This document shows, piece after piece, positions 1,010 to 5,523 of a DNA stretch of 5,523 bases. This stretch comes from Methanobacteriota archaeon (GTDB lineage Archaea; JAADCQ01; Methanopyri; Methanopyrales; Methanopyraceae): positions 1 through 5,523 of the forward strand of contig JAMOPO010000055.1 in assembly GCA_027064425.1 (NCBI GenBank), given 5' to 3'. Under the pieces are notes generated by a model. That model had not been told where the DNA came from. It did no database searches and saw only the letters and a list, made by a program, of their open reading frames with translations. Positions within the stretch are counted from its first letter, which is position 1; each line of letters opens with the position of its first letter. A program made the translations under genes and the position numbers.

Positions 1010-2584
1010 CTGAAGCGAGCGCCCGCCGCCACCCTGCTCCTGGCGGGCCTGCTCGCGCTGGCGGCCCCCGCGACCGCGATCGATTGGACGGGAACCCAGG
1101 AGTACCAGCGGCTGAAACCCCAGTGCGAGAAGGCGGTTCGGGCGGCCACCATCTGGTTCTTCATCCCGGAAAGCAACGGGGGCTGGTACCTGCCCGAGCA
1201 CCACCTCTGGAAGCCCGCGTTCGACTACGAGCTGAAGTCCCTGTGCCTCGCGTGCCCCCTCCTCGCCCACGCGGACCGCATGGGCCTCCTCGCCAACCAG
1301 GTCCCCCAGGGCGTCCCCGCCAAGAACCCGAGCCAGGAGTGGCCGATGGCCCGCAAGGCTGCCGTCCAGTGGCTGCTGGACAACCAGAACGAGGACGGCG
1401 GCTGGGGCTCGGGATGGTCGTTCCGGGGCATCGTGCACACCGGCAGCCAGACGTCCGACACCGCCGCCGGCGTGCACCTGCTCCTGCGGCTGGGCGACGG
1501 ATCCAAGGAGGTCATCGACGCGATCCACCGAGCCCTCACGTGGCTCCTCCGCGAGCAGCTGGAGGACGGCGGATGGAGCCGCCGAAAGGAAGAGTCCAAG
1601 GAGGGCGCCGCGTGGCACACCGAAGCCGCGATCTCCGCGCTGCTCCAGGCGCTCATGCACCGGGACAAGCTGGACCTGACCGACGAGCAAGTCACCCGAA
1701 TCAAGCGGGCCATCGAGCGTGGGGTTCAGTGGCTCCTGAGCACCCAGAACCCGGACGGGTCCTGGTACTCCGGGATCATGTGCCAGGAGTACTCGGCGGA
1801 CACGCAGGCGTACGTCCTCAGCGCGCTGATCGACGTGTACCTGCTCGCGGACCAACTGGGATTGAACGTGGACAAGAATAAGGTGCTTCAGGCGATTAGG
1901 AAGGGTATCCAGTGGTTGTTCTCAAGCAACGCGGGTATAGATTGGGTGCAGACGGAGTTGGGTAAGGGTCCGGCCTGGGCGTACTCCGAGGCTTACCTGC
2001 AGGCGCAGGGCTCGCCGGAAACGACCGTCACGGGCAACGTGCTGCGACTCGCCATCCTCAAAGCACTCTGGTTCGACGTGGGTACGGACGTGCTGATCAA
2101 CACGCCCGGGGGCAAGATGAGACTGAGGGACCTCCTCACGAACCCGGATTACAACATTCACGCGACCATCAAATGGCTCCTAGACCAGCAGTGGCTCGAC
2201 GACGCGCTCCAGAGGGGCCACCCCGAGTGGTACGGCGGCTGGCCCTGGCCCGCCCGGGGCGTGACGAGCACCGTCGAAGGAGCCTCCTACGAGCCCGCCT
2301 CCATCTGGGCCACCTCCTTCGCCACCCGAGCCATCGAAGCCTACCTCAACCCAACCGAATACTACGGACCATCGAAGGCATCGAAAGAGCGGAGCACCAA
2401 ACAGAAGGAGGAGCGCGAGGGAAGGGGCCGCGTGAGTGGAGAGACCAAAGGAGGGACCAAAGTGAGCGGAGAGACCAAAGAGACCAAAAAGAGGGGGAGA
2501 CCGGGCGTGCCGGTGATCCCGGTGCCCCCGCTAGCGCCGGCGCGCCGCCAGCGGGAGCAGCGCGACCAGCGCCAGCACCGGTAG
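1010..2584 (+). CDS. Exported alpha/alpha-toroid protein with prenyltransferase/squalene-cyclase QW repeats, degenerate C-terminal anchor
   Basis: The protein has 524 residues. The frame is open from just after the TAA at 986-988 and contains no ATG, GTG or TTG before the signal peptide (LKRAPAATLLLAGLLALAAPATA, cut near 23). The CTG at 1010 is therefore the likely start, since the first ATG (1280) would discard the export signal. QW-type repeats follow: a divergent one near 41-59, then AVQWLLDNQNEDGGWG (118-133), ALTWLLREQLEDGGWS (175-190), GVQWLLSTQNPDGSWY (238-253), GIQWLFSS (299-306) and TIKWLLDQQ (386-394) with WYGGWPW (407-413). These repeats build an alpha/alpha toroid. The DxDD motif of squalene-hopene cyclases and DCTAE of oxidosqualene cyclases are absent, so terpene cyclisation is unlikely. 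A binding or structural role at the surface fits better. Cysteines lie at 39, 79, 82 and 258. A Lys/Glu/Gly-rich linker (455-498) leads to VPVIPVPPLAPARR, a remnant of the neighbours' anchor without its hydrophobic core. The end overlaps the convergent gene by 54 bp. Confidence 0.8.
   Translation: MKRAPAATLLLAGLLALAAPATAIDWTGTQEYQRLKPQCEKAVRAATIWFFIPESNGGWYLPEHHLWKPAFDYELKSLCLACPLLAHADRMGLLANQVPQGVPAKNPSQEWPMARKAAVQWLLDNQNEDGGWGSGWSFRGIVHTGSQTSDTAAGVHLLLRLGDGSKEVIDAIHRALTWLLREQLEDGGWSRRKEESKEGAAWHTEAAISALLQALMHRDKLDLTDEQVTRIKRAIERGVQWLLSTQNPDGSWYSGIMCQEYSADTQAYVLSALIDVYLLADQLGLNVDKNKVLQAIRKGIQWLFSSNAGIDWVQTELGKGPAWAYSEAYLQAQGSPETTVTGNVLRLAILKALWFDVGTDVLINTPGGKMRLRDLLTNPDYNIHATIKWLLDQQWLDDALQRGHPEWYGGWPWPARGVTSTVEGASYEPASIWATSFATRAIEAYLNPTEYYGPSKASKERSTKQKEEREGRGRVSGETKGGTKVSGETKETKKRGRPGVPVIPVPPLAPARRQREQRDQRQHR
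2432..2480 (+). repeat. Two 19-bp direct repeats at 30-bp spacing in the Lys-rich linker
   Basis: GTGAGTGGAGAGACCAAAG (2432-2450) recurs as GTGAGCGGAGAGACCAAAG (2462-2480) with one mismatch. The start-to-start distance of 30 bp equals ten codons, giving VSGETKGGTK then VSGETKETKK. This looks like tandem duplication inside the flexible linker between the toroid domain and the former anchor. Confidence 0.75.
2486..2496 (-). terminator. Pyrimidine-rich T-run terminator of the propeller/coiled-coil gene, inside the opposing CDS
   Basis: Read on the minus strand this is CCCCTCTTTTT, beginning 35 nt past the TAG stop at 2531-2533. The same 11-nt string occurs 25 nt past the stop of the other minus-strand surface gene (4683-4693). 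Archaeal transcription commonly ends at T-rich stretches without a stem. This one sits in the part of the toroid gene encoding the Lys-rich linker (ETKKRG), so the two transcripts would overlap at their 3' ends. Confidence 0.5.
2527..2555. repeat. Near-perfect GC inverted repeat at the convergent gene ends
   Basis: The arms 2527-2539 and 2543-2555 pair at 11 of 13 positions around a GCG loop, with mismatches at 2533/2549 and 2537/2545. It spans the TAG of the minus-strand gene. It also codes for similar peptides on both strands: PLAPARR on plus and PLAARRR-stop on minus. It could form a hairpin in either transcript and help terminate or protect both 3' ends. The pairing is seen directly and the function is inferred. 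Confidence 0.6.
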
Positions 2585-4519
2585 CACCGGACCCTTGCCC
2601 TTCTTACCACCCTGCTTCTCCAGCTCACTCACCCGCTTCTCCAGGTCCTTCACCTTACCCTCTAGGTCGCTGACCTTACCCTCTAGGTCACCGACCTTGC
2701 CCTTCACGCCCTTCAGGTCGCCCTCCAGGCTCCCCACCTTCTTCTTCAGGTTGTCCACATCGTTCTTGAGCGCCTTAACGTCGCCCTTGACACTCTCCAG
2801 ATCCTGCTGAAGGTCCATGCGCTTGCGATCCAGCTCGGAGATTTGGTGCTCCATCCACGGCACCATCTCGTCGATCGGCCCGCCCAGGTTCACCAGGTCC
2901 AGGACCACGTCGCCCCGGTTGTGGCCCCCGTACCCCGTGTCACCCTTGTAGAACGCCACCGCCACCCGGGCGTTACCGAACGTCTCGTCGACGGTGACCG
3001 CCGTCGGGGTGAAGTAGTACACTCCGTTCCCGTACCCCGTCAGGTCGTACTGGGCCAGGACCAGCAGCTGGCCGCCCCTGCACCTCAGCAACGCGCCCGC
3101 GAGCCTCTCCTTACCGAACCCGCCGCTGTTGTCCGAGAACACCACCAGGTAGTGTCGGGCCAACACTTTACCGCTGCCGTTCGTCTCGTCGTACACGTGC
3201 ACCACGCACGGGGCGGTCTGCGTGTAGATCCTTCGGTAGACGCACTTGACGCTCTTGAACACCCACCTCACTTCCTCACGCCCTTTTTCACGCACTTTCT
3301 CACGCACGATCAGGGCCGCGTAGATGTCCGGGCCCGTGTCCGAGCCGCTCATACCTCCCCACAGCGGGCCGGCCCGGTACACGATCACGTTGCCCGCGAC
3401 CCAGGGCGCCTCGCTCGTCTCATCCTTCTCCGTCAGCCCGCCCTGCACCTCCACCGGGCTCAGCTGGGCGCTACCCAGCGTCGAGAGGTCGCTCGGGAGC
3501 TCGATCACGAACGCGCGCACGTGGCACTTATTCCACTGGCCGTAGAAGCGGCCATAGCTGAGGTCCGGATTCGCGTTCGAGTAGTCCGTGAGCGCCACGA
3601 TCAGGTACTTCTTGCCGCCCTCCTCGTACACCGAGGCCACCGGCCGCGCGTGCCCGAAGTAATGCTCATTTCCATGCACGTATTCCTTGCACGCGCGCTG
3701 CTTGATCACCACCGGATTACCAAGCACTACGCTCAAGTTGCCGCTGGTGTCGATCTTCAGGACCTGCAGCACGACGTCACCCATTTTCCCTTGCTGACCT
3801 CCTTGCTGGCCACCCTGCTGCTGACCACCTTGTTGTTGCTGACCAGTCTGACCAGTCTGTTGCTGCTGTCCGCCTTGCTGACCTTGCTGTTGCTGACCGC
3901 CCTGTTGACCACCCTGCTGTCCCCAAGCCTCGTACACGACGGCCACGTAACGGTTACCGTTCTTGTCCTCGCCCAGGTACACCAGGTGCGGGTACGCGGC
4001 GTTACTCGCCACCTTCTTGGCGTTGTCCACGGTGATCTGCTTGTTCTGCGCGTCCACGGTCACCTTGTACACGTACAGGTCACCGTAGTCCTTGGTTTGG
4101 CGGTCCTGCCGGGACACCTTCACGACCGCCAGCAGGAACTTGCCCCGGTCGTAGGCTACCAGGGCCGGCCCGAACAGAACGTTGCCCTGACCCGGGTCGA
4201 CGGTGGCACCGGCGACCTCGTTACCCTGTTCGTCCAGCGCCTTCAGCCCGATCTTACCGACGATCTGACCGCCCTCGGACCAGTCCTCCCACGCGACGAG
4301 GATCACCTTGCTCTTGTCATCGTAGGCCACCGCCGGGCCCTTGATCTGGTAGTAGTACCCGTCCCGGGAGGCCACGTCGCTGTCCTTCCACTTCTGCTGC
4401 TTCTGGTCGTACTGCATGGCCTGATCCAGGGTTTTCGTCCACTCCACCTGCAGCGCCTGCGCGGGCCCCGCGAGCAGCACCGCCAGCGTGGCGGCGATCA
4501 GCACGGTCCACTTGCTCAA
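2531..4519 (-). CDS. Surface protein: signal peptide, probable beta-propeller with Gln/Gly insertion, coiled-coil stalk, C-terminal RRR anchor
   Basis: The product has 662 residues and starts at TTG (4517-4519), which gives a textbook signal peptide (MSKWTVLIAATLAVLLAGPAQA, cut near 22). There is no ATG, GTG or TTG in frame in the 40 bp upstream. Seven similar units follow, each a short strand with Pro/Val/Ala/Tyr, a turn, then a hydrophobic strand: GPAVAYDDKSKVILVAWED (61-79), then near 117, 176, 291, 371, 436 and 504. This pattern recalls beta-propellers of the 'PxVAYD...LVAWED...DIYG' kind. A Gln/Gly tract (200-245) is inserted in the loop after the third unit. Residues 556-636 form a coiled coil with heptads such as VGDLEGK and VSDLEGK. 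A GGKKGK linker precedes GPVLPVLALVALLPLAARRR (643-662), a hydrophobic anchor with a basic end. Cysteines are at 277, 332, 426, 438 and 480. The protein is probably membrane-anchored with the propeller held away on the coiled-coil stalk. Its ligand is unknown. The next gene upstream shares the anchor and the Gln/Gly tract. Confidence 0.88.
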   Translation of the reverse strand: MSKWTVLIAATLAVLLAGPAQALQVEWTKTLDQAMQYDQKQQKWKDSDVASRDGYYYQIKGPAVAYDDKSKVILVAWEDWSEGGQIVGKIGLKALDEQGNEVAGATVDPGQGNVLFGPALVAYDRGKFLLAVVKVSRQDRQTKDYGDLYVYKVTVDAQNKQITVDNAKKVASNAAYPHLVYLGEDKNGNRYVAVVYEAWGQQGGQQGGQQQQGQQGGQQQQTGQTGQQQQGGQQQGGQQGGQQGKMGDVVLQVLKIDTSGNLSVVLGNPVVIKQRACKEYVHGNEHYFGHARPVASVYEEGGKKYLIVALTDYSNANPDLSYGRFYGQWNKCHVRAFVIELPSDLSTLGSAQLSPVEVQGGLTEKDETSEAPWVAGNVIVYRAGPLWGGMSGSDTGPDIYAALIVREKVREKGREEVRWVFKSVKCVYRRIYTQTAPCVVHVYDETNGSGKVLARHYLVVFSDNSGGFGKERLAGALLRCRGGQLLVLAQYDLTGYGNGVYYFTPTAVTVDETFGNARVAVAFYKGDTGYGGHNRGDVVLDLVNLGGPIDEMVPWMEHQISELDRKRMDLQQDLESVKGDVKALKNDVDNLKKKVGSLEGDLKGVKGKVGDLEGKVSDLEGKVKDLEKRVSELEKQGGKKGKGPVLPVLALVALLPLAARRR
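2534..2593 (-). other. C-terminal anchor / sorting-signal-like segment (GPVLPVLAL...RRR)
   Basis: It codes for residues 643-662. It is tripartite: Pro-containing motif (PVLPVL), hydrophobic helix (ALVALLPLAA) and terminal RRR directly before the stop. This layout is shared by PGF-CTERM, PEF-CTERM and PEP-CTERM signals that archaeosortases and exosortases process. The exact motif does not match those named classes as I know them. Confidence 0.65.
2571..2590. repeat. 20-bp exact repeat in the anchor, copy 1
   Basis: GCCAGCACCGGTAGCACCGG is identical to 4758-4777. Both copies encode PVLPVLA of the anchor with the same codons, including the CTA. Identity at synonymous positions points to recent duplication or gene conversion. 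Confidence 0.9.
2612..2854 (-). other. Coiled-coil stalk coding segment with 21-bp heptad repeat
   Basis: It codes for residues 556-636, from MEHQISELDRKRM to VSELEKQ. Hydrophobic residues (V, L) recur in a heptad a/d pattern and charged D/E/K residues fill the other positions. At DNA level ACCTTACCCTCTAGGTC occurs at 2652-2668 and again at 2673-2689, a 21-bp (seven-codon) period. The stalk therefore seems to have grown by duplication of heptads. Glycines (GDLEGK) recur at surface positions. Confidence 0.85.
3785..3922 (-). repeat. Gln/Gly low-complexity tract in the propeller gene
   Basis: It codes for residues 200-245, almost only Q and G with three T and one terminal K, interrupting a propeller loop between VAVVYEAW and MGDVVLQVL. 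Codons alternate CAG and CAA with GGT/GGC/GGG, so this is not a pure triplet microsatellite. Two stretches are identical to the tract of the neighbouring gene: 3804-3826 with 4935-4957 (23 bp), and 3891-3910 with 4950-4969 (20 bp). Confidence 0.9.
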
Positions 4520-4529
4520 CTCAGGCTGA

Positions 4530-4545
4530 CCCCGGCTCTTCGGGG
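4530..4545 (-). promoter_or_regulatory. Small leader hairpin upstream of the propeller/coiled-coil gene
   Basis: CCCCG (4530-4534) and CGGGG (4541-4545) form a perfect five-base stem with a six-base loop, ending ten bases before the TTG start. On the mRNA the GGGG arm is the best candidate ribosome-binding string, so the stem could mask it. It is short and GC-rich, and may be chance. Confidence 0.3.
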
Positions 4546-4605
4546 CTAAAGTCGAGGGATGAATGTAAGGATCGGGTTCCCGGTGGTGTTAAGCATAGGT
4601 TGACG
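4546..4605 (-). promoter_or_regulatory. Probable promoter zone of the propeller/coiled-coil gene
   Basis: This is the least GC-rich part of the 198-bp spacer. Minus-strand candidates for a TATA-like box are TATGCTTAACA (about 4592-4602), CCTTACATTC (4561-4570) and ACTTTAG (4546-4552). None is a strong match. The upstream gene has its own terminator in the spacer, so a separate promoter here is likely, but I cannot choose the exact box. Confidence 0.35.
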
Positions 4606-4682
4606 CTGCGAGAGGGGACGGCTCAACGCGCTCGGTGCGGTCGCGGAAGAATTAGTGGGGGTTGGGTGCGTGAGGCGTCGGG

Positions 4683-4693
4683 AAAAAGAGGGG
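4683..4693 (-). terminator. Pyrimidine-rich T-run terminator of the Gln-rich stalk gene
   Basis: On the minus strand this reads CCCCTCTTTTT followed by CCC, within a C/T-rich run beginning right after the TAA stop. The same 11-nt string lies downstream of the other minus-strand gene (2486-2496). This supports separate transcription units, not one operon. Confidence 0.55.
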
Positions 4694-4714
4694 TGGGGCG
4701 TGAGTGGGAGGGGG
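4690..4714 (+). other. Predicted G-quadruplex motif just after a stop codon
   Basis: The plus strand has GGGG-T-GGGG-CGTGAGT-GGG-A-GGGGG: four G-runs with loops of 1, 7 and 1 bases, meeting the usual G3+N1-7 rule. It lies on the template strand of the minus-strand gene, starting three bases past its TAA, and overlaps the T-run terminator. It may help RNA polymerase pause. The motif is seen directly and folding is unproven. Confidence 0.55.
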
Positions 4715-4717
4715 TGT

Positions 4718-5523
4718 TTAGCGTCGGCGGAGTGCGGGCACGGCCAGCACCGCTAGGGCCAGCACCGGTAGCACCGGGATTTTCGGCTTCTGCTTCTTCT
4801 GCTGCGGCTGCTGTTGAGCCTGCTGTTGCTGCTGGGCCTGCTGCTGGCCGACCTGCTGTTGCTGCTGACCGGTCTGCTGACCACCACCTTGCTGCTGTTG
4901 GGCCTGCTGGCCTTGCTGACCGCCCTGCTGTTGCTGCTGGCCACCCTGCTGCTGACCGCCCTGTTGACCGCCGCCTTGCTGCTGCTGGGCCTGCTGCTGG
5001 ATCGTGACGGTCAGCGGCACTGCCTTCACGTCGTACTGCCCAGCGGTGCCGGTCTCCTCGTAGTACGAGAGCATCACCTTGGCACTCGCCTGCTGCTGAC
5101 CCTGCTGGGACTGTAGCTTCTGCACCGTGACCGCGGCCAGGTAGGCGTTGTTGCTCACGTCCATTTCGGCGGTCTGCTTCACGTCCGCCGTCGCGTTGCT
5201 CGCGTCAACCTCCACCAGGTACGAGATCAGCTTCTTCTGGCCGTTGTCGTACGTGGTGATCACGTAGTAGTCCTTGCCGTTGTACTGGCCGACGTACGCC
5301 ACCCGCGACGTGTCGTTGACGGTGACGTTGGCGACGTTTAGCTTGGTCAGCTGCAGGCCGCTCTTGCCCTGGGCCAGGATGGCCACGCCGTAGTTGCCGC
5401 TCTGATCCTTGTACAGGACGAGGTCGCCCGCGACGTGGACGACCTCCTGCACGTTCAGGTCGCCGGTGCTTACGTCGCTCGCCTGCGCCTGCGATAGCTT
5501 GGACAGGTCGGTCACGTCGACCG
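4718..5523 (-). CDS. Surface protein with propeller-like strands, long Gln/Gly stalk and C-terminal RRR anchor, N-terminal part outside window
   Basis: The frame is open from the window edge to TAA at 4718-4720. A GTG lies at 5513-5515, but the frame continues upstream (VDVTDLSKL) and no signal peptide is present, so the true start is almost certainly beyond the edge. From that GTG, residues 1-172 contain repeated beta-strand pairs: HVAGDLVLYKDQSGNYGVAIL (27-47), SRVAYVGQYNGKDYYVITTY (70-89) and NAYLAAVTVQKL (123-134) to AKVMLSYYEE (145-154). They are like the blades of the propeller in the next gene, so this may be the end of another propeller. Residues 173-239 are nearly all Gln with Gly, a few Ala and single T, V and P residues. 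They form a stalk where the neighbour has a coiled coil. KKQKPK then IPVLPVLALAVLAVPALRRR (246-265) is an anchor nearly matching the neighbour's. No cysteine is visible. The protein is probably surface-exposed and membrane-anchored. I do not recognise a named family. Confidence 0.82.
   Translation of the reverse strand, partial: VDVTDLSKLSQAQASDVSTGDLNVQEVVHVAGDLVLYKDQSGNYGVAILAQGKSGLQLTKLNVANVTVNDTSRVAYVGQYNGKDYYVITTYDNGQKKLISYLVEVDASNATADVKQTAEMDVSNNAYLAAVTVQKLQSQQGQQQASAKVMLSYYEETGTAGQYDVKAVPLTVTIQQQAQQQQGGGQQGGQQQGGQQQQQGGQQGQQAQQQQGGGQQTGQQQQQVGQQQAQQQQQAQQQPQQKKQKPKIPVLPVLALAVLAVPALRRR
4721..4783 (-). other. C-terminal anchor / sorting-signal-like segment (IPVLPVLAL...RRR)
   Basis: It codes for the last 21 residues. 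Like the segment at 2534-2593 it has PVLPVLAL, a short hydrophobic helix and RRR before the stop, with a Lys-rich stretch in front. Upstream sequence of the two proteins differs completely (Gln stalk here, coiled coil there), so the tail behaves as an independent module. Confidence 0.68.
4758..4777. repeat. 20-bp exact repeat in the anchor, copy 2
   Basis: It is identical to 2571-2590 and encodes the same PVLPVLA residues with the same synonymous codons. It is the second copy of the anchor repeat. Confidence 0.9.
4799..4999 (-). repeat. 67-codon Gln/Gly/Ala low-complexity tract
   Basis: It codes for a stalk made mostly of Gln runs of two to five separated by Gly or Ala. On the plus strand it appears as CTG/TTG-rich triplet DNA with interspersed GCC, ACC and GCCC blocks. 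Mixed CAG/CAA codons argue against a simple slippage product. Segments 4935-4957 and 4950-4969 are exact matches to the tract of the downstream gene. Confidence 0.92.

Follow-up and report, generated by a model that had tools for sequence, protein, structure and literature searches.

Dozens of surface proteins of the archaeal genus described here, which we infer to be Methanopyrus and name accordingly, very probably carry a new C-terminal sorting signal, P-V-x-P (PVxP), that on sequence evidence is paired with a new archaeosortase subfamily, within a type of system that is already known. Two of the tails belong to proteins 1 and 2, which are encoded in the window, the entire 5523-bp contig G000:C55 of a genome of 1.54 Mb in 57 contigs; this own genome (G000) and four relatives form the genus set of five genomes. 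We consider it probable, and with some confidence, that a single archaeosortase-family enzyme cuts the PVxP tails and joins the newly formed C-terminus to an acceptor. What can be read directly from the sequences is the signal with its position, the fact that many tails face one enzyme, the conservation of the catalytic residues, and that genes for lipid synthesis are present. An earlier note on this DNA had suggested an undescribed recognition motif for a dedicated sortase-like transpeptidase, and as a prediction this suggestion is supported: 'undescribed' holds for curated libraries, because the signal matches no model well and the enzyme passes no named subfamily.

The two window tails, GPVLPVLALVALLPLAARRR of protein 1 and IPVLPVLALAVLAVPALRRR of protein 2, are both in frame and, as described in the note, follow Lys-rich linkers (KKGKG, KKQKPK) on proteins with unrelated stalks. 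The stalk of protein 1 has a predicted coiled coil and that of protein 2 a Gln-rich tract. An N-terminal signal peptide is seen in protein 1 (residues 1-22) only, because the contig does not reach the start of protein 2. The DNA of the 60-nt tails of the two proteins is 68% identical, and the stretch that they share consists of exactly 20 identical bases (CCGGTGCTACCGGTGCTGGC, 2571-2590 and 4758-4777).

The tails are widespread in the genus. A first tail profile, made from 10 tails mostly of protein 1 relatives and run over the five genus genomes, recovered many further tails on unrelated proteins. The refined profile has 46 matches at E<=0.1 in these five genomes, 15 of them in the own genome and 8, 12, 4 and 7 in the others; the numbers are profile-search matches and not a complete proteome survey, and they bear out the expectation that the host would have other tail bearers. 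When the same profile was run over 96 other archaeal genomes, it found 12 weak matches (best E 0.008), with 9.6 expected by chance. Reading frames were opened for nearly every genus match: nearly all tails are C-terminal, at most 17 residues from the stop codon, and most of the frames start with a signal peptide. The core of the tail is P-V-x-P, with S, L, N or T as the commonest third residues; in 32 of 42 tails its first residue is 19-22 residues from the end, and a stretch of about 10-16 hydrophobic residues and a terminal R(R)R come after it. The likeness of the two window tails exceeds chance, and the PVLPVLAL motif of the earlier note should be widened to P-V-x-P. Clustering of the bodies at E<=1e-5 results in 20 groups, eight with at least two members; the rest are single, some of them truncated or weakly scoring. 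Six matches from outside the training set of the refined profile, opened later, are all C-terminal tails (one doubtful). After residue shuffling of the collected tails the pattern is kept in 3.0 of 46, versus 38 observed; as the tails were picked by profile, this is a secondary check only. No weight was given to four doubtful low-scoring matches: G002:1370741 (no Arg at the end), G003:C24:7985 and G004:C36:12247 (His/Tyr-rich short frames) and G000:C34:3877 (neither signal peptide nor PVxP). None of the curated sorting-signal models of NCBIfam matches the PVxP signal well.

The note had proposed to look for a gene of the archaeosortase family that has the Cys, Arg and His residues, and all five genus genomes contain it: each has exactly one TIGR04178 protein (37.8-42.4 bits, cut-off 23), and the enzyme of the own genome (161 amino acids, G000:C57:74023-74508) is also over the cut-off of PF09721 (29.4 versus 25.7 bits). 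Aligned with archaeal relatives, its active-site pattern is Cys64, Asn103-x-x-Arg106 and His125; among 30 such relatives, N103, R106 and H125 are invariant and C64 is nearly so. From its hydrophobicity, the enzyme is predicted to sit in the membrane as a multi-pass protein, and its structural model, a confident one (mean predicted local distance difference test score, pLDDT, of 87.6), has several long helices, at residues 4-17, 23-39, 67-79, 85-117 and 121-158. A sequence search of the PDB returned nothing relevant and a fold search had no significant match (the best rows were DgkA, with Z 6.5, a range common for helical bundles); the fold thus neither supports nor opposes the assignment as archaeosortase.

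The enzyme stays below the cut-offs of all named archaeosortase and exosortase subfamilies listed in NCBIfam 20.0. When a profile of the genus enzymes was run over 345 archaeal genomes, they scored 294-317 bits and the next best protein 61 bits. In a phylogenetic tree, the genus enzymes group together in a single clade (99/97), whose sister group (97/97, long branches) consists of ArtA-like proteins; these have 216-282 bits on the ArtA model. PVxP tails are not beyond chance in those non-genus genomes with the nearest enzymes that are part of the 96-genome set. A literature search found no paper on a Methanopyrus archaeosortase, though the founding paper on archaeosortases (Haft 2012) may mention this enzyme.

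The action of the enzyme on the tails, the cut site and the lipid attachment would be as follows: the proteins would be exported via their N-terminal signal peptides, the tail would dock the exported protein in the membrane, the active-site Cys64 would attack at or near PVxP, and the new C-terminus would be moved to an acceptor, most likely an amino-lipid such as archaetidylethanolamine or archaetidylserine. PGF-tailed proteins of Haloferax are cut by ArtA and become linked to lipid, a process that depends on PssA and PssD and for which archaetidylethanolamine has been proposed as acceptor (PMC7157517). PssD- and PssA-like genes are found here too: they lie in tandem, a few kilobases from a classical sortase, and each is over one curated cut-off and below the archaeal-specific ones. 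The envelope of Methanopyrus is two-layered, with pseudomurein beneath an outer layer in which no regular order is visible (PMC4243693). A wall of this kind would be well matched by a head that a long stalk connects to its lipid anchor.

Several points weigh against this mechanism. The archaeosortase gene adjoins no tailed gene, and because of this the pairing of enzyme and tail is based on their joint occurrence in the five genomes of one genus. A few family tails have variants of the motif (KIPVAGAVALLSL in C15, AVYP, AISP). Single tails compared with NCBIfam have weak matches, most often to MYXO-CTERM and JDVT-CTERM (best E 0.0001-0.0015); enzymes of the CPBP type sort MYXO-CTERM and also JDVT-CTERM. 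Lastly, the layout of a hydrophobic stretch plus RRR fits a membrane anchor: the tails could be mere stop-transfer anchors, with a hydrophobic helix and cytoplasmic Arg, that are alike by descent and DNA exchange and are not cut. Copying does explain part of the likeness, as locus L041 of G003, which belongs to another species and encodes an unrelated body, has a 60-nt tail whose DNA matches the protein 1 tail with 100% identity. We nevertheless regard mere anchors as unlikely: P-V-x-P is kept at a fixed distance while the other tail residues differ widely, which an anchor does not need, and every genus genome retains an archaeosortase whose catalytic residues are intact.

The L041 tail is also informative about the history of the tails. 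Between L041 and the window, there is similarity in the stalk upstream, the DNA downstream is unrelated, and the near-exact shared stalk-tail DNA extends over 1574-1723 in L041 and 2530-2661 in the window; the archaeosortases of the two species are 84% identical at the protein level. A recent exchange of stalk-tail DNA between surface-protein genes, by recombination, is likely. The exact likeness of the PVLPVLAL tails is therefore partly shared ancestry, and the case for the signal rests on the diverged PVxP tails for this reason.

The tails could also be processed by a classical sortase (PF04203, class E/C-like), with pseudomurein or something else as the acceptor. One such protein above cut-off is present in each genus genome, sortase signals are likewise tripartite, and the pseudomurein wall under the outer layer (PMC4243693) would be at hand. 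However, the gene beside the sortase encodes, in all five genomes, a secreted protein whose tail is of another kind, GKYRTGESLFL...YRGL (YxTG). This tail occurs about once per genome (G004 has one or two weaker matches in addition), and the protein is likely the substrate of the classical sortase. The T-G pair that precedes the hydrophobic helix in this tail is absent from the PVxP tails, and Pro-rich motifs are typical of exosortase and archaeosortase signals. With the sortase having a YxTG-tailed neighbour of its own, the archaeosortase is the better partner for the many PVxP tails, and processing by the classical sortase is quite improbable. Processing by another intramembrane protease (rhombosortase- or myxosortase-like), to which the weak MYXO-CTERM and JDVT-CTERM matches would point, is highly improbable: no CPBP (PF02517) protein is over cut-off in the genus (a search that did not include rhomboids), the PVxP tails have no Gly-Gly motif, and they have no conserved Cys, such as the one that PMC11980579 gives as invariant in MYXO-CTERM.

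PssD, PssA, the YxTG-tailed protein and the classical sortase are grouped at G000:C27:142500-149000 (locus L182) and at locus L183, and the distance between PssD and the sortase is about 3 kb in the other genus genomes too; a link between the sortase and lipid synthesis is possible. The same cluster includes a protein that may be an RcpC/CpaB-like neighbour. In a pangenome study of pseudomurein-containing archaea, one of the gene clusters listed comprises a 'Sortase E' and an RcpC/CpaB-like protein (PMC11915815).

Cleavage and transfer of the PVxP tails by the archaeosortase can be extended to a wider picture, to which we give slightly better than an even chance: an undescribed archaeosortase subfamily, restricted to Methanopyrus among the archaea searched, would lipid-anchor a diverse set of coat proteins (propellers, toroids and coiled coils with PVxP tails) through the pseudomurein wall, in parallel to a classical sortase with its own tail, and the tail DNA would be a module exchanged by recombination, both among unrelated surface-protein genes and from one species to another. 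The paired signal and enzyme offer testable functions for dozens of surface proteins that otherwise lack annotation in an early-branching hyperthermophilic methanogen, and they add an enzyme-signal pair absent from curated libraries. A pseudomurein-walled cell in which an archaeosortase and a classical sortase occur side by side is also a setting in which the attachment target of each system can be asked for.

The features of the window are listed in Table 1. The structure predicted for protein 1 (mean pLDDT 72.4) has its best Foldseek match in the sialidase Neu2 (E 1.2e-7, low identity) and protein 1 is predicted to be a sialidase-like beta-propeller head on a coiled-coil stalk, with a Gln-rich insert within the head at about residues 202-240; as known propellers are only about 10% identical to it, the proposal is limited to the fold. 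The signal peptide is conserved at the N-terminus of paralogues and orthologues of protein 1. The own genome has two close copies of protein 1 with the same tail, on C10 and C9, as well as relatives on C11 and C15 with the C-termini EITVLPALVLAVLAVPALRRR and KIPVAGAVALLSLIAALAARRRH; C10 also bears a second tail of the protein 2 type. In other species of the genus, matches to the protein 1 body carry related but differing tails (SPMAVLAAILTLAAYRRYSR, PVTPIAVVLGLTALAMVLRRR, PVVPIVLVGALGALAALRTRR, PVLPMVVIGALALVTARRRA). No relative of protein 1 was found in a scan of GTDB r220, where the own and near genomes may be missing, or in a plasmid collection. Protein 2 consists of an N-terminal part, a Gln-rich stalk and the PVxP tail, with the stop at 4718.

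Table 1. Features encoded in the window and the basis of their assignment
Feature	Position	Strand	Basis
Truncated gene for a secreted protein of at least 315 amino acids, cut by the contig edge	3-947	minus	
Secreted alpha/alpha-toroid protein (SQHop cyclase/prenyltransferase-like)	1010..2584	plus	Open reading frame; Pfam PF13243 over cut-off
Protein 1, 662 amino acids, TTG start	2531..4519	minus	Open reading frame
Protein 1, signal peptide LSKWTVLIAATLAVLLAGPAQA, residues 1-22	4454..4519	minus	Sequence
Protein 1, all-beta head, residues 23-546	2882..4453	minus	Secondary structure and fold search
Protein 1, coiled-coil stalk, residues 552-633	2621..2866	minus	Predicted helix H552-633; coiled-coil Pfam matches
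Protein 1, PVxP tail GPVLPVLALVALLPLAARRR; PVLP at 2579-2590	2534..2593	minus	
Protein 2, at least 267 amino acids, 5' end lost at the contig edge	4718..5521	minus	Open reading frame
Protein 2, PVxP tail IPVLPVLALAVLAVPALRRR; PVLP at 4766-4777	4721..4780	minus	

The toroid protein ends in RGRPGVPVIPVPPLAPARRQREQRDQRQHR, which has a PVIP motif and no hydrophobic helix. Its gene likely starts at a CTG: there is no ATG, GTG or TTG ahead of the signal peptide, the frame is open from the stop at 986-988, and LKRAPAATLLLAGLLALAAPATA begins at the CTG and is preceded by GGGGGGAG. The toroid and protein 1 genes are convergent and the 3' end of the former overlaps the tail of the latter (2531-2593) on the opposite strand, the last toroid codons lying antisense to the tail of protein 1 (LAPARRQREQRDQRQHR); the same convergent arrangement is found in C9, C10 and C15. 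Several secreted proteins have a proline-rich C-terminal variant without hydrophobic helix (GVPVIPVPPLAPARRQ, VIPVAPLVPPARRQRGDQ, GLPIPVPPTLPRPRRRR, GVPVVPVPFTGRSS; at window 2492-2551 and loci L004, L007, L012 and L045), perhaps decayed or alternative tails. PVxP-tailed genes are often paired as neighbours; examples are a DLQEYKEAY protein with a toroid protein after it (L090, L095, L096) and a VVLPYHGSYDPHWVYKAHELP protein adjoining another tailed protein (L085, L087, L100). The protein encoded at the truncated left edge of the window has no Pfam or NCBIfam match.

Among known systems, the class E-like sortase with its YxTG tail, present in the same genomes, is alike in having a Cys enzyme and a C-terminal tripartite tail, but the enzyme belongs to the unrelated family PF04203 and the tail has a T/A-G pair and neither PVxP nor an RRR end. 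MYXO-CTERM with its myxosortase and JDVT-CTERM share with the PVxP tails a short Ala/Leu-rich helix and an Arg end, which accounts for the weak profile matches to them; MYXO-CTERM requires its invariant Cys, which the PVxP tails do not have, and the CPBP enzyme over cut-off is missing too. The named exosortase and archaeosortase pairs (VPXXXP/ArtB, PEF/ArtC, ArtD, ArtE, ArtH, heimdallarchaeosortase and XrtH) share the TIGR04178 signature and the tail layout, but their models are below cut-off on the Methanopyrus enzyme and their tail matches are weak at best. Archaeosortase A with PGF-CTERM of Haloferax volcanii (TIGR04125, TIGR04126) differs in size (about 270 amino acids, versus 161-172 for the Methanopyrus enzymes), in its model (28-41 bits for the Methanopyrus enzymes, with a cut-off of 75) and in the motif, PGF instead of PVxP, and the Methanopyrus cell has pseudomurein; both systems have a polytopic membrane enzyme with Cys, Arg and His, PssA and PssD genes, and many tripartite tails with an Arg end for one enzyme.

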